Source: Anaerolineales bacterium (lineage in GTDB: Bacteria; Chloroflexota; Anaerolineae; Anaerolineales; UBA11579). From it: a stretch of DNA of 64,000 nt. Shown here piece by piece: positions 41,713 to 46,782 of this stretch. A model generated the notes under the pieces. It did not search any database. It was given only the letters and a program-made list of their open reading frames with translations, and was not told where the DNA came from. The DNA lies in the NCBI GenBank assembly GCA_025808555.1, contig CP075526.1:434001-498000 (forward strand), written 5' to 3'. Positions within the stretch are counted from its first letter, which is position 1, and each line of letters begins with the position of its first letter. The position numbers and the translations under genes are program-made.

Positions 41713-41719
41713 GCCTATC

Positions 41720-41725
41720 ATTCTA
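41720..41725 (-). promoter_or_regulatory. -10 box (TAGAAT) for the D-amino-acid oxidase gene
   Basis: Minus-strand TAGAAT ends 7 nt before the ATG, so the message would be leaderless or nearly so. Confidence 0.5.
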
Positions 41726-41756
41726 GACCCACTTTGTACCAATCCTCGCAAAAAGC

Positions 41757-41785
41757 TTGACTCAGGCTTAAAATGCCTGTATATT
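41757..41785 (+). promoter_or_regulatory. Promoter of the bmp transport operon
   Basis: TTGACT (41757-41762) and TATATT (41780-41785) are separated by exactly 17 nt. It is the best -35/-10 pair I see in the window. Predicted start of transcription is near 41791-41792, where the leader's first stem begins. Confidence 0.75.
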
Positions 41786-41790
41786 GTGGC

Positions 41791-41936
41791 CTTACCCTCA
41801 CCAACCGCCATGTATACGCCTACTCCATAAGGACGCATGCACGGCTTCTACCTCCCCCCGGTATCGAAGCCACACGGGGAGGAGTGTAAGACCCAGCCGA
41901 AATCACGTCCCATCATCTTGATGGGACGTTTGTTTT
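41791..41936 (+). promoter_or_regulatory. Riboswitch-like leader with pseudoknot and terminator, upstream of bmp
   Basis: CTTACCCTC (41791-41799) can pair with GAGTGTAAG (41882-41890), one mismatch, closing a domain. Inside, GGCTTC/GAAGCC (41843-41848, 41866-41871) with TACC/GGTA forms a hairpin whose C-rich loop can pair with GGGGAGG (41876-41882): CCTCCCC at 41851-41857 makes a 7-bp pseudoknot. A terminator hairpin follows at 41905-41929 with TTTGTTTT. The fold fits no riboswitch class I can name with confidence. The downstream operon suggests a nucleoside, purine or related ligand. Confidence 0.55.
41905..41936 (+). terminator. First terminator in the bmp leader
   Basis: ACGTCCCATCA (41905-41915) pairs with TGATGGGACGT (41919-41929); TTTGTTTT follows. 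It lies about 115 nt after the predicted transcription start and 120 nt before the bmp start. Confidence 0.82.
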
Positions 41937-41969
41937 CCCGCATTGCACAACCAAGTCAAAGCGAACATC

Positions 41970-42020
41970 AAAGCTGAGGAGGTGACCCGAGAGCGAGCTC
42001 ACCTACCTCAGCTTTTTATT
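41970..42020 (+). terminator. Second, tandem terminator in the bmp leader
   Basis: AAAGCTGAGG (41970-41979) pairs with CCTCAGCTTT (42006-42015) and AGGTGA (41980-41985) with TCACCT (41999-42004), then TTTTTATT. The 5' arm includes AGGAGGTGA, a perfect ribosome-binding sequence that would be hidden in the hairpin. Confidence 0.75.
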
Positions 42021-42055
42021 TCTCGGCTTCATTAACTAGAACTTGGAGGAGTGGA

Positions 42056-43234
42056 ATGTCTCGAAAACCGATTTTTGCTTTTCTCACCCTGGCCGCCCTG
42101 CTGCTGGCCGCCTGTGGCGGCAGCAGCGCCAGCGGTGAAGGCTTCACTTTTGGCATGATCCTGGTCGGCCCGCAGAACGACCATGGCTGGAGCCAGGCGC
42201 ACTATGAGGGCGGCCAGTATGTCGTCGAGCACCTGCCCGGCGCGGAAATGATCGTATTCGATCTGCTCAACCCGGCCGACAAGCCGGAGGCCACGCTGGA
42301 AGGCGTGGTGGACGAAATGGTGGCGCAAGGCGCCACGCTCATCTTCACCACTTCGGATGAGTTCGAAGAGGACACCACCACGGTGGCAGCCAAGTACCCG
42401 GATGTGGTCTTCGTCAATGTCTCCGGTGATGACGCCCTCACCGGAGAAGCACCCGCCAACCTGAGCAATGTGATGGGCCGCATGGAAGAGATGAAGGCGG
42501 TTGCGGGCTGCGCCGCGGCGCTGACCACGCAGACCGGCCAGCTGGGCTACGTTGGCCCGCTGATCAACCATGAGACTTTGCGCCTGACGGCTTCGGCCTA
42601 CCTGGGCGCCCGCCACTGCTACGAGACCTACCGCGGCGAGAACCCGGATGACCTGGAATTCACCGTGAGCTGGATCGGCTTCTGGTTCAACATCCCCGGC
42701 GTCACCAGCGACCCCACCGAGGTGACTACCAACTTCCTCGACACCGGTGTTGACGTTGTGCTGAGCGGAATCGACACCACCGAAGCCATCAACGTGGCCG
42801 GCCAGCGCGCAGCGGCCGGTGACACCGTATGGGCGATACCCTACGACTATCTCGGCGCCTGCGACAATGCGCCCGACATCTGCCTGGGTGTACCCTTCTT
42901 CAACTGGGGGCCGGACTATCTGGCCGTCGCCACCGCCGTCATCGAAGGTGAGTGGAGCCAGAGCTGGTTGTGGAACGGCCCGAACTGGGATGACCTCAGC
43001 GATCTGGACAGCAGCTCGGTGGGTTGGCTGAACGGGCCTGGCCTGAGCGAAGAAGCGGCCGCCAACCTGGCCGACTACATCAGCAAGCTGGCCAGCGGTG
43101 AAGTGGCCGTGTGGTCCGGTCCCATCAACCTGCAAGACGGCACAGCGTACATCGCGGCGGGGGCAGTAGGCACCGATGAAGAGATCTGGTATCTACCCCA
43201 GCTGCTGGAAGGGATGAACGGCCCCAGCCAGTAG
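42056..43234 (+). CDS. BMP family ABC transporter substrate-binding lipoprotein
   Basis: The 392-residue protein has a lipobox ending LLAAC (C20) and the BMP fold: FGMILVGPQNDHGWSQAHYEGG, DEMVAQGATLIFTTSDEFEEDT, NVSGDD, and DVVLSGIDTTEAI. BMP (PnrA/TmpC-type) proteins bind purine nucleosides, and the partner ATPase and permeases follow, so nucleoside uptake is the best guess. An ACTTGGAGGAG ribosome site precedes the ATG. The leader is riboswitch-like. Confidence 0.9.
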   Translation: MSRKPIFAFLTLAALLLAACGGSSASGEGFTFGMILVGPQNDHGWSQAHYEGGQYVVEHLPGAEMIVFDLLNPADKPEATLEGVVDEMVAQGATLIFTTSDEFEEDTTTVAAKYPDVVFVNVSGDDALTGEAPANLSNVMGRMEEMKAVAGCAAALTTQTGQLGYVGPLINHETLRLTASAYLGARHCYETYRGENPDDLEFTVSWIGFWFNIPGVTSDPTEVTTNFLDTGVDVVLSGIDTTEAINVAGQRAAAGDTVWAIPYDYLGACDNAPDICLGVPFFNWGPDYLAVATAVIEGEWSQSWLWNGPNWDDLSDLDSSSVGWLNGPGLSEEAAANLADYISKLASGEVAVWSGPINLQDGTAYIAAGAVGTDEEIWYLPQLLEGMNGPSQ

Positions 43235-43250
43235 CAGCAACGAGGACCAA

Positions 43251-43292
43251 CGTGCTGGCTGCCGCAAAATTGCGGCAGCCAGCACGGATTTT
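43251..43292 (+). terminator. Strong hairpin between bmp and the ATPase gene
   Basis: A perfect 16-bp stem (43251-43266 with 43271-43286, arms CGTGCTGGCTGCCGCA) has a 4-nt loop and is followed by GATTTTTC. It would end most transcripts after bmp and protect the bmp message, so the binding protein is made in excess. Confidence 0.8.
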
Positions 43293-43317
43293 TCTGGTCT
43301 ACTCAGCTGACATCATC

Positions 43318-44775
43318 ATGCAAGTACACCTCAACGCGATCCACAAACAATTTGGAACGCTGGTTGCCAACGACGAGATCTCGATCCAGTTCGAGCCGGG
43401 CCGCATTTACGGCCTGCTGGGCGAGAACGGTGCCGGCAAGAGCACGCTGATGAAGATCCTGTCGGGCTACCAGCAGCCAGACCGCGGCGAAATTGTGCTA
43501 AGGGGTACGCCCCAGCAGTTCGCCTCGCCGCGCCAGGCGCTGGCAGCTGGCGTCGGCATGCTGTACCAGGAGCCGCTGGACGTGCCGGTCTTCACCGTAC
43601 TGGAGAATTACTTGCTGGGCCGGGCCGCCGGGGGCGAAAGCCCGCGGCAAGCCGCCCGAACGCTGGCAGCGCTGGCGCAGCGCTACGGCTTCGATATTGA
43701 CCCCCACGAACATACGAGTGAATTGAGCATGGGTGAGCGCCAACAGCTGGATCTGCTGCGTTTGCTGGCGGGCGGCGCGCAAGTGCTGATATTGGACGAG
43801 CCGACCACTGGCATCAGCGCAGAACAGAAGGACATCCTGTTCGCCTCCATGCGCACCCTGGCGCGCGAAGAAGGTAAGACCCTGATATTGGTGTCGCACA
43901 AACTGGATGAAGTGCAAGAGCTGTGCGACTATGCCTATGTGCTACGCAAGGGACGCCTGGTGGGCGGCCTGCCGCTACCCTGCCCCAACGAGGAACTGGT
44001 GAGCCTCATGTTTGACGAGTTGGCGCCGCGGCCCGCTCGCCAGACTGCGCACGGAGACATGCTGTTGCAGCTTCAACATATCTCCGTGCGCAGTACGCGC
44101 CTGGAGTTGGAGCCGGTGAGCCTGCAATTGCAGGCCGGGCAGGTGCTCGGCCTGGCCGGGCTGGAGGGCAGTGGGCAGGAGCTGCTACTGCGCGCTTGCG
44201 CCGGGCTGCTGCCGCTGAGCGGCGGCAGCCTGCAGCTGGGTGGCGAAAGCCAAACTGAATGGAACTACCCACAAGCCCGCCAGCACGGCGTGGCCTATTT
44301 ACCGGCCGGCCGCCTGGAAGAGGGCCTGATCGCCGGCCTGACCCTGACCGAGCACATGGCGCTGGTGAGCCAGGCCCACGGAGTGCTAGTGGACTGGCCG
44401 TCCAACCGCCAACTGGCGGCGCAGCACATCGGCACCTACCAGGTGGTGGGACAGCCTGAGTCGTATATTGAGAACTTATCCGGCGGCAACCAGCAGCGCT
44501 TTTTGTTCGCCATGCTGCCGCAGAATTTGAAACTGATCCTGATGGAACACCCCACCCGCGGGCTGGATATTCGCTCAACGGACTGGATCTGGGAACAGCT
44601 CGACCGGCGCCGCGCCCAGGGTACGGCGATCATGTTCATCTCGGCCGACCTGGACGAGATCGCGGCGCGCAGCGACGTGATCGCGGTGTTCTCGGGCGGG
44701 CGGCTGCTGCGCAGCCTGCTCGCCGCGGAAACCACCGCGGATGAGCTGGGCCATTTGATTGGCGGCGCGCTGTGA
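43318..44775 (+). CDS. BMP-type ABC transporter ATPase (two nucleotide-binding domains)
   Basis: The 485-residue protein has two fused ABC domains. The first is complete: Walker A GENGAGKST, signature LSMGERQQ, Walker B VLILDEPT. The second lacks a Walker A (GLEGSGQELL), keeps a signature (LSGGNQQRF) and has MEHPTRGLD, with the catalytic Glu replaced by His. This asymmetry is usual for sugar and nucleoside ABC ATPases of this type. ATG at 43318 is preferred over an upstream start inside the terminator hairpin. It overlaps the first permease gene by 4 nt (GTGA). Confidence 0.9.
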   Translation: MQVHLNAIHKQFGTLVANDEISIQFEPGRIYGLLGENGAGKSTLMKILSGYQQPDRGEIVLRGTPQQFASPRQALAAGVGMLYQEPLDVPVFTVLENYLLGRAAGGESPRQAARTLAALAQRYGFDIDPHEHTSELSMGERQQLDLLRLLAGGAQVLILDEPTTGISAEQKDILFASMRTLAREEGKTLILVSHKLDEVQELCDYAYVLRKGRLVGGLPLPCPNEELVSLMFDELAPRPARQTAHGDMLLQLQHISVRSTRLELEPVSLQLQAGQVLGLAGLEGSGQELLLRACAGLLPLSGGSLQLGGESQTEWNYPQARQHGVAYLPAGRLEEGLIAGLTLTEHMALVSQAHGVLVDWPSNRQLAAQHIGTYQVVGQPESYIENLSGGNQQRFLFAMLPQNLKLILMEHPTRGLDIRSTDWIWEQLDRRRAQGTAIMFISADLDEIAARSDVIAVFSGGRLLRSLLAAETTADELGHLIGGAL

Positions 44776-45815
44776 GCCGGCTGGAGCGCATCTGGCCGCT
44801 GTTGCCCGGGTTGGCCGCATTCCTGGTGACCACGCTGCTTTTGCTGGCGATGGGCACATCGCCCATTGATGCGTATGCCGCCATGTGGCAGGGCGCCTTT
44901 GGCACCAGCGCACGTGTATACAGCGTGCTGGCCTTTCTGGTGCCGCTGCTGCTGGCAGCCAGCGGGCTGCTGCTCACCTTCAAAGCCGGTCTGTGGAACA
45001 TTGGTATCGAAGGCCAGATCATCATGGGCGCCATCGCTGCCAGCTGGGTGGCGCTGCGGGTCGAGCTGCCCGCCGGCCTGCAGATCCCGCTGGAGCTACT
45101 GGCCGCGATGGCGGGCGGCGCCTTGTGGGCGGCGCTGGCTGGCTTATTGAAGACACGCGGCGGCGTGCACGAGATCTTTGGCGGGCTGGCCTTGAACAAT
45201 CTTGCCATCCTGCTCACCAATTACCTGATCGCTGGCCCCTGGCAGCCACCAGAGGGCGGCAGCTTCCGCGGCACGCAGCCGTTTGGCGCCCACGCCCTGC
45301 TGCCCCTATTCGAGAATTCGCGCCTGAGCCTGCTCTCGCTGGCTCTGGCGTTGCTGGCCTTCGCGGCGGTGGCGCTGGCACTGACCAATGGCCATTGGGG
45401 GCTGCGCCTCAAGGCGCTGGGCCAAAACGCCCGCTCGGCGTTCCTGCTGGGCGTTTCCAGCCGCCGCGAGATGCTGCTGGCGATGGCGCTGTGTGGCGCG
45501 CTGGCCGGGCTGGGCGGCGGCGTGCGCGTGCTCAGTTGGTTCGACAGCCTGCGCCAAAGCATCTCAGGCGGCATTGGCTACCTGGCGCTGATGGTGGTGC
45601 TGCTGGCAGGCTTCCGCCTGGTGCTGACGCCGCTAGTGGCCTTCTTCTTCTCCGCCGTGCTCAACGGCAGTATTACGTTACAACTCCGCACACAGCTGCA
45701 CTCGGCTCTGGGCGATATCCTGACTGGCGTGCTGGTGCTGCTGGTGCTGCTGTTCGGCAATTACGAACGCGTGCGCCGCGCCCTCAGGCGTGGCGGGAGT
45801 GCAAAGAATGGATAG
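44772..45815 (+). CDS. BMP-type ABC transporter permease 1
   Basis: The 347-residue membrane protein has about eight to nine helices and the family segments LTFKAGLWNIGIEGQIIMGA, KTRGGVHEIFGGLALNNLAI and LGQNARSAFLLGVSSRREML. It forms half of the membrane channel for the nucleoside-type transporter. The GTG start overlaps the ATPase stop codon; its own stop overlaps the next ATG by 8 nt. Confidence 0.9.
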   Translation: MSRLERIWPLLPGLAAFLVTTLLLLAMGTSPIDAYAAMWQGAFGTSARVYSVLAFLVPLLLAASGLLLTFKAGLWNIGIEGQIIMGAIAASWVALRVELPAGLQIPLELLAAMAGGALWAALAGLLKTRGGVHEIFGGLALNNLAILLTNYLIAGPWQPPEGGSFRGTQPFGAHALLPLFENSRLSLLSLALALLAFAAVALALTNGHWGLRLKALGQNARSAFLLGVSSRREMLLAMALCGALAGLGGGVRVLSWFDSLRQSISGGIGYLALMVVLLAGFRLVLTPLVAFFFSAVLNGSITLQLRTQLHSALGDILTGVLVLLVLLFGNYERVRRALRRGGSAKNG

Positions 45816-46782
45816 CACCCAACTCATCGCCATTTTCGGCAGCATCCTGCTGCAGTCGGCCCCGCTGATCATTGCCGTATGCGGCGAAACGATCAGCGAG
45901 CGGGCCGGCGTCATCAATCTTTCCATGGATGGCAGCCTGCTGCTCTCGGCGCTGGCCGGTTTCGTGGCTGCTCTGCTGAGCGGCAGCCTGCTGCTGGGCT
46001 TCGCCTCGGCCGCCGCGGTGGGCGCGCTGATGGCGCTCATCGTGGCCTTTGGTAGCCTGCACCTGCGCCAGAATCAGGTGGCGATCGGTTTTGTGCTCGC
46101 CATGCTGGGCGACAGCCTGAGCGCGTTTCTCGGCCAGAGCTTCACCCGCCTGCCCGGCCCCAGCGTGCCAGCCATGCACATCCCCATCCTCAAAGACATT
46201 CCAGTACTCGGCCCGATCTTCTTCCGTCAGGACGCGGTGGTGTACTTCGCCCTGCTCTTGGTGGCGGTGACGTGGTGGTTCTTGTTCCGCACCCGCGCCG
46301 GGCTGGAGCTGCGCAGCGCCGGCGAGCGGCCTGAGGCGGCCTTCGCCCGCGGCGTGGCCGTGCGCAAGCTACGCTACCTCTATGCGGTGCTGGGCGGTGC
46401 GCTGGTGGGCATTGCCGGGGCGGCCTATTCACTGGACGTCAAGATCGGCTGGGCCGAGGGACACACCCGCGGCATGGGCTGGATCGCCCTGGCGATTGTG
46501 ATCTTTGGCGGCTGGTCACCCGTGCGCGGGGCGCTGGGCGCGGTGCTGTTCGGCGCCACCAAGGCGCTGGCCACGGTGCTGCAGCGCAGCTTTCCGCAAG
46601 TGGCGCTGGTGGCGTTCAACGCTGTGCCTTGGCTGCTGATGATCGCCGTGTTGCTGCTGGTGAGCGGCAAGCTGGCCGCACCGCTGTTGGCGCGGCCGCC
46701 GGCCGCCTGGCGGCGGACCTTGCGCGGGCTGCTGCAGGCCGCCCCACCCGCCGCGCTGGGCGACCTGCTGGACGATAATTAG
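45808..46782 (+). CDS. BMP-type ABC transporter permease 2
   Basis: The 324-residue membrane protein has about nine helices and the family text GETISERAGVINLSMDGSLLLSA, RSAGERPEAAFARGVAVRKLRY and GMGWIALAIVIFGGWSPVRGALGA. It pairs with permease 1. ATG at 45808 has a GGGAG site; the start at 45790 is unlikely. The next gene begins 3 nt after its stop. Confidence 0.9.
   Translation: MDSTQLIAIFGSILLQSAPLIIAVCGETISERAGVINLSMDGSLLLSALAGFVAALLSGSLLLGFASAAAVGALMALIVAFGSLHLRQNQVAIGFVLAMLGDSLSAFLGQSFTRLPGPSVPAMHIPILKDIPVLGPIFFRQDAVVYFALLLVAVTWWFLFRTRAGLELRSAGERPEAAFARGVAVRKLRYLYAVLGGALVGIAGAAYSLDVKIGWAEGHTRGMGWIALAIVIFGGWSPVRGALGAVLFGATKALATVLQRSFPQVALVAFNAVPWLLMIAVLLLVSGKLAAPLLARPPAAWRRTLRGLLQAAPPAALGDLLDDN

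Follow-up and report, generated by a model that had tools for sequence, protein, structure and literature searches.

Judged from its sequence, the leader of the bmp operon in the 64,000-nucleotide stretch of Anaerolineales DNA analysed here (the window) is a real, conserved and undescribed cis-regulatory leader of an ABC transporter operon, and we lean slightly towards reading it as a translation-coupled transcription attenuator in which a ribosome travelling close behind the RNA polymerase would turn the operon on. Two short open reading frames, missed by the earlier note on this DNA, tile the leader, and the second of them crosses a first terminator and runs into a second hairpin. With two ORFs whose frames are preserved, the second of them containing a terminator, the leader points to translation-coupled attenuation instead of an aptamer. 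The evidence consists of the ORFs and the preservation of their frames, of terminators that have been exchanged between lineages, and of an invariant G-rich block. An open frame, a peptide free to change and an internal terminator are what a coupled attenuator would require, with the ribosome itself as the switch.

The promoter, TTGACT-17-TATATT (41757-41785, + strand), is sigma-70-like and is the sole site of its kind between 41400 and 42500 (score 10/12, with 0.2 expected); it is kept in the homologues, all of which retain TTGAC and the TATATT -10 box. Transcription would start near 41792. The sequence ACC(G/C)CCAT(G/A/C)TAT, at a constant spacing from the -10 box, is common to all three lineages of the leader described below. 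Downstream lie bmp (42056-43234, +), which encodes a substrate-binding lipoprotein (Pfam Bmp, PnrA-like), and the operon's genes for an ABC ATPase and two permeases (43252-46782, +); the probable function of the operon is purine uptake. The nearest solved relatives of the bmp protein are 3s99 and AtzT, the latter of which carried guanine when purified (PMC6834077). Lineage A strongly conserves a stretch at 41715-41760, which separates the bmp promoter from a divergent gene for a DAO-type oxidoreductase; it includes TTGGTACCAA, a palindrome in some species and a possible operator. Separately, nine 'viral' contigs of IMG/VR (L138-L146) encode BMP-type substrate-binding proteins with 46-55% identity, which may be cargo or host contamination.

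Of 11 genomes in the genus, 10 have a homologous leader in front of bmp, one per genome; a blastn search yielded five further same-genus genomes and bmp-based retrieval four more, and the named relatives are unclassified Anaerolineales MAGs. The ten leaders form three lineages: A, that of the window, with six genomes (G000, G001, G002, G006, G007 and G008), B (G003, G009 and G010) and C (G005). Ten of the 11 genomes have an exact match to GGGGAGGAGTGT with MAR directly after it, at a single site in each, and in the inspected leaders it lies 5' of bmp. A search of 400 genomes of the order for an exact pattern from the -10 box to the block, with the box 84-114 nt upstream, returned this genus and one match elsewhere, and the block was absent from the examined bmp leaders of other genera; judged by these searches, the element is restricted to a single genus. 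The single match in another genus (L157, in G170) may be due to chance.

The first ORF (ORF1; 41810-41830, +) reads MYTPTP followed by a stop, and its equivalents in the relatives read MYTPNP, MTFTPIYDTFFVRPPAE, MSTPIYGVHWLRPPAD and MTPIYGVTPRTAKK, each likewise ending at a stop. Among the ten leaders it varies from 6 to 17 codons, with six in lineage A, and its start codons, which share one phase, are offset by 15, 18, 21 and 30 relative to the -10 box. Its variable columns, counted by codon position, are 0/2/3 in lineage A and 4/4/8 in lineage B, a third-position bias, and its stop codon exchanges TAA for TGA within lineage A; as ORF1 is short, this coding signal rests on few substitutions. 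T-P-I-Y is shared by the peptides of lineages B and C, and R-P-P-A within B. In all ten leaders ORF1 is followed after 3-9 nt by the second frame, ORF2. Before its start, where ORF1 stops, there is a purine-rich, Shine-Dalgarno-like stretch that is weak in G003; in the window this is AAGGA (41829-41833, +), the probable Shine-Dalgarno sequence of ORF2, which overlaps the ORF1 stop codon.

In the window ORF2 (41837-41977, +) encodes 46 amino acids and has TGA as its stop codon. In the three lineages it is 40-46 codons long, spans the invariant block and terminator 1 and stops within the 5' arm of hairpin 2. Terminator 1 lies inside ORF2 in 10/10 leaders, which is the arrangement looked for in a pyrBI-type leader. 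The ORF2 frame is open in every one of the ten, and the other forward frames over that span nearly always contain stops. In MAFFT alignments all six indels within ORF2 are multiples of three (3, 18, 15, 18, 3 and 3), as against none of the nine outside it (1, 1, 1, 5 and 2, and 1, 1, 2 and 1). The three long ORF2 indels overlap and may represent two events, and the figure of 6/6 holds for the MAFFT alignment, since a simple pairwise aligner placed indels within ORF2 that were not multiples of three. A comparable ORF is found in a dinucleotide-shuffled leader with a probability of 0.03-0.05 per lineage, and neutral drift would retain ORF2 with a probability of 0.12-0.35 per compared pair; each separate frame test is moderately significant, and the ORFs of the three lineages are not independent because the lineages are related. 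With tests of this strength, and with the pairwise aligner giving a less clear result, we regard selection on the ORF2 frame as likely rather than proven. A functional, conserved ORF2 peptide was considered and rejected: the variable columns are spread evenly over codon positions (13/18/18 and 14/12/17), and the G-rich motif changes frame relative to ORF2. A search of the peptide against Pfam gave no match.

Terminator 1 (41905-41936, +), with an 11-bp stem and a U-rich tail, folds far better than shuffled sequence (hairpin 41905-41929, followed by TTTGTTTT; z -5.2) and is strong in all three lineages (z -4.7 to -6.5), with a U-rich tract after the hairpin in each. Its stems are nevertheless unrelated, the sequence having been fully replaced: lineage A has CGTCCCATCA.., lineage B GCACCCTGG.. 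and lineage C TGCCTTGTC... Hairpin 2 (41970-42018, +), the 5' arm of which holds both the ORF2 stop and the heptamer GGAGGTG, is also strong in the window (41970-42015, followed by U-rich sequence; z -5.4), and the two serial terminators that had been described earlier are borne out for lineage A. They do not extend to lineages B and C, where hairpin 2 is weak (z +0.4, -1.2 and -2.3) and is not convincingly a terminator; the two ORFs are present in all lineages, the second strong terminator in lineage A only.

The GGAGGTG of hairpin 2 lies 78 nt upstream of bmp. Of 53 Anaerolineae bmp leaders outside the genus, 20 have the same heptamer at 25-160 nt from the gene, mostly 71-94 nt upstream (L064-L105), versus 16 of 619 control windows, and hairpin 2 therefore probably formed over an older leader element of the Anaerolineae. 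GGAGGTG is itself Shine-Dalgarno-like, often without an ATG, GTG or TTG at normal spacing and with ATT, ATC or ATG a few nucleotides downstream; it could belong to a conserved leader ORF whose start is unusual, or be a ribosome-binding element. Two leaders, L084 and L087, carry behind it, in the same frame, IKTTIDCLL and VKKTIDCLL, each ending at a stop and separated by several synonymous differences, which suggest a translated short peptide starting at ATT or GTC.

The G-rich block is GGGGAGGAGTGT (41876-41887, +), 12 nt that are invariant in lineages A, B and C just upstream of terminator 1, that sit in three different ORF2 reading frames in the three lineages, and that stay the same whatever the frame or the pairing partner. 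We regard it as a candidate RNA polymerase pause or NTP-sensing block: lying behind a small hairpin, it could be the site at which polymerase slows when GTP is low, and its likeness to a pause consensus is weak evidence for such a role.

These elements can be assembled into a mechanism, of which we infer the pausing, the coupling, the signal and the sense in which the operon is controlled. A ribosome translating ORF1 would free the start of ORF2, whose Shine-Dalgarno sequence overlaps the ORF1 stop. The G-rich block, behind its small hairpin, would slow RNA polymerase and so allow the ribosome on ORF2 to catch up; translation of ORF2 would then keep terminator 1 from forming. As it ends within the 5' arm of hairpin 2, it would block hairpin 2 as well, so that the bmp importer operon is transcribed. 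Were polymerase instead to run ahead, the terminators would form and the operon would be off. The signal would most plausibly be a low level of purine nucleotide, GTP; sensing of purine or GTP is plausible because the solved relative AtzT held guanine, and making more importer when purine is low would make physiological sense. It is tempting to take this one step further, to a purine counterpart of pyrBI in which low GTP slows polymerase at GGGGAGGAGTGT and the ORF2 ribosome overrides two serial terminators so that a guanine or purine importer is made, although in this specific form we hold the proposal to be unlikely. We know of no GTP-sensing coupled attenuator of this kind.

The earlier note had read the leader as a candidate riboswitch. 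On the rival explanation that we weigh here, the leader RNA, with the core GGGGAGGAGUGU, would bind a purine-type ligand and decide terminator 1, the ORFs being incidental. The whole leader is far more stable than shuffled sequence (z -6.9). The 104-nt 'aptamer' part alone reaches z -3.5, with 2 of 200 shuffles folding equally well, which speaks for a riboswitch, as do the attachment of the leader to one transporter gene and the invariance of the 12-nt block. The promoter, closing stem, hairpin with a C-rich loop and two terminators that the note listed are all found in the sequence. The closing stem, P1 (41791-41890, +), pairs 41791-41795 with 41886-41890 and extends to 41799/41882 (CTTACCCTC/GAGTGTAAG), with eight of nine pairs formed; P2 (41807-41845, +), in lineage A only, pairs the ORF1 start region with the Shine-Dalgarno and start region of ORF2; and in the GGCTTC/GAAGCC hairpin (41843-41871, +; arms 41843-41848/41866-41871) the C-rich loop CCTCCCC (41851-41857) could form 7 base pairs with GGGGAGG (41876-41882), a possible pseudoknot. 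Within lineage A these elements favour an aptamer: P1 and P2 are kept, and the hairpin, as GGYTTC/GAARYC, pairs in six of six leaders, with one compensatory double change (CG to UA) and a single GC pair turned into GU; that covariation did not exceed a column-shuffle control (87/500).

Beyond lineage A the fold does not carry over. In lineages B and C the 5' end and the motif pair differently and more weakly; per leader, P1 pairing was no better than that of shuffled 5' ends (P 0.05-0.46), and pairing was better within matched than between swapped lineages in two of the three cases, the third not fitting, so that a lineage-specific pairing of the 5' end with the motif is at most suggestive. 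Unrelated hairpins take the place of the GGCTTC/GAAGCC hairpin in B and C, which have local folds unlike that of A; P2 and the pseudoknot are not conserved across the three lineages, and an alignment of all three gave no common fold, its consensus pairs being mostly spurious and long-range. The proposed aptamer (P1, P2 and pseudoknot) is in effect restricted to lineage A, with a single compensatory change, and the absence of the stem and pseudoknot as a shared fold from the homologous leaders weakens the riboswitch reading. That the fold matched no class that could be named does hold up: searching the window with Rfam 15 at the gathering score returned two tRNAs and nothing else, the leader alone at E values up to 10 gave only chance matches and none to the purine riboswitch models, and 20 related loci gave nothing relevant. 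Like the purine (guanine/adenine) riboswitch RF00167, the leader precedes a purine or nucleoside transporter and contains the string TTCTACC, in which an echo of the purine aptamer junction had been heard; unlike RF00167, which it does not match at E up to 10, it is without the purine-riboswitch three-way junction, and TTCTACC varies even inside lineage A (TTCTCTCC in two species). A riboswitch would also occur as a single copy per genome in one genus and would leave the open ORF2 frame and its in-frame indels unexplained. We consider it improbable, with some likelihood left to it since the 12-nt block is invariant, the lineage A fold is plausible and only three lineages exist.

Rather poor odds also attach, in our judgement, to the idea that the sensor is a ribosome stalling on ORF1, as in a nascent-peptide or codon-sensing attenuator, with ORF2 as the relay. 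The mgtP, TnaC and erm leaders are attenuators of these types, and Pro codons are used in mgtP. ORF1 is rich in Pro and Thr, ending in TP-stop or RPPA(E/D)-stop, is the better conserved of the two peptides, shows the third-position bias and stop-codon exchange noted above, and overlaps the ORF2 Shine-Dalgarno sequence with its stop; against this, the length and C-terminus of the peptide differ between lineages, lineage A offers six codons only, and the invariant G-rich block goes unexplained. Finally, that the block is a binding site for a regulator or an RNA-binding protein, with the ORFs due to chance or secondary, would agree with 12 nt that are invariant regardless of frame and pairing partner, yet it is very unlikely given that no candidate regulator is linked and that the preservation of the ORF frame is left without an explanation.

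Should the coupled attenuator with its purine signal prove true, nucleotide sensing by ribosome-polymerase coupling, described in enterobacteria, would extend to the Chloroflexota, with a sensing block that is G-rich, not U- or A-rich, before a purine importer. It would also mean that a small ORF that is not conserved can stay open merely for the ribosome to pass through a terminator, and that searches for structured RNA can mistake such coupled leaders for an orphan riboswitch.

Two known systems invite comparison. In pyrBI, polymerase pauses at U-rich tracts and UTP is sensed. In E. coli the gene for the pyrBI leader peptide, 135 bp long, contains the terminator (PMC4824070), and tight coupling of ribosome and polymerase stops it from forming (PMC4824070, PMC5021804). 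The bmp leader resembles pyrBI (pyrL) in having an intrinsic terminator in a leader ORF of about 135 bp and genes of nucleotide metabolism downstream; it differs in its G-rich block, two ORFs and two hairpins, in leading to an importer where pyrBI leads to a biosynthetic enzyme, and in its unrelated sequence. The Salmonella mgtCBR leader, of 296 nt, combines tandem attenuators with two short ORFs, of which mgtM conserves an adenine stretch that senses ATP, and not its peptide (PMC3641672). The likeness here (to mgtM and mgtP) lies in two short leader ORFs and in the conservation of nucleotides rather than of the ORF2 peptide. Unlike mgtCBR, with its alternative stem-loops and proline-rich ORF, the bmp leader stands before other genes in another phylum, and its ORF2 crosses the terminator itself.
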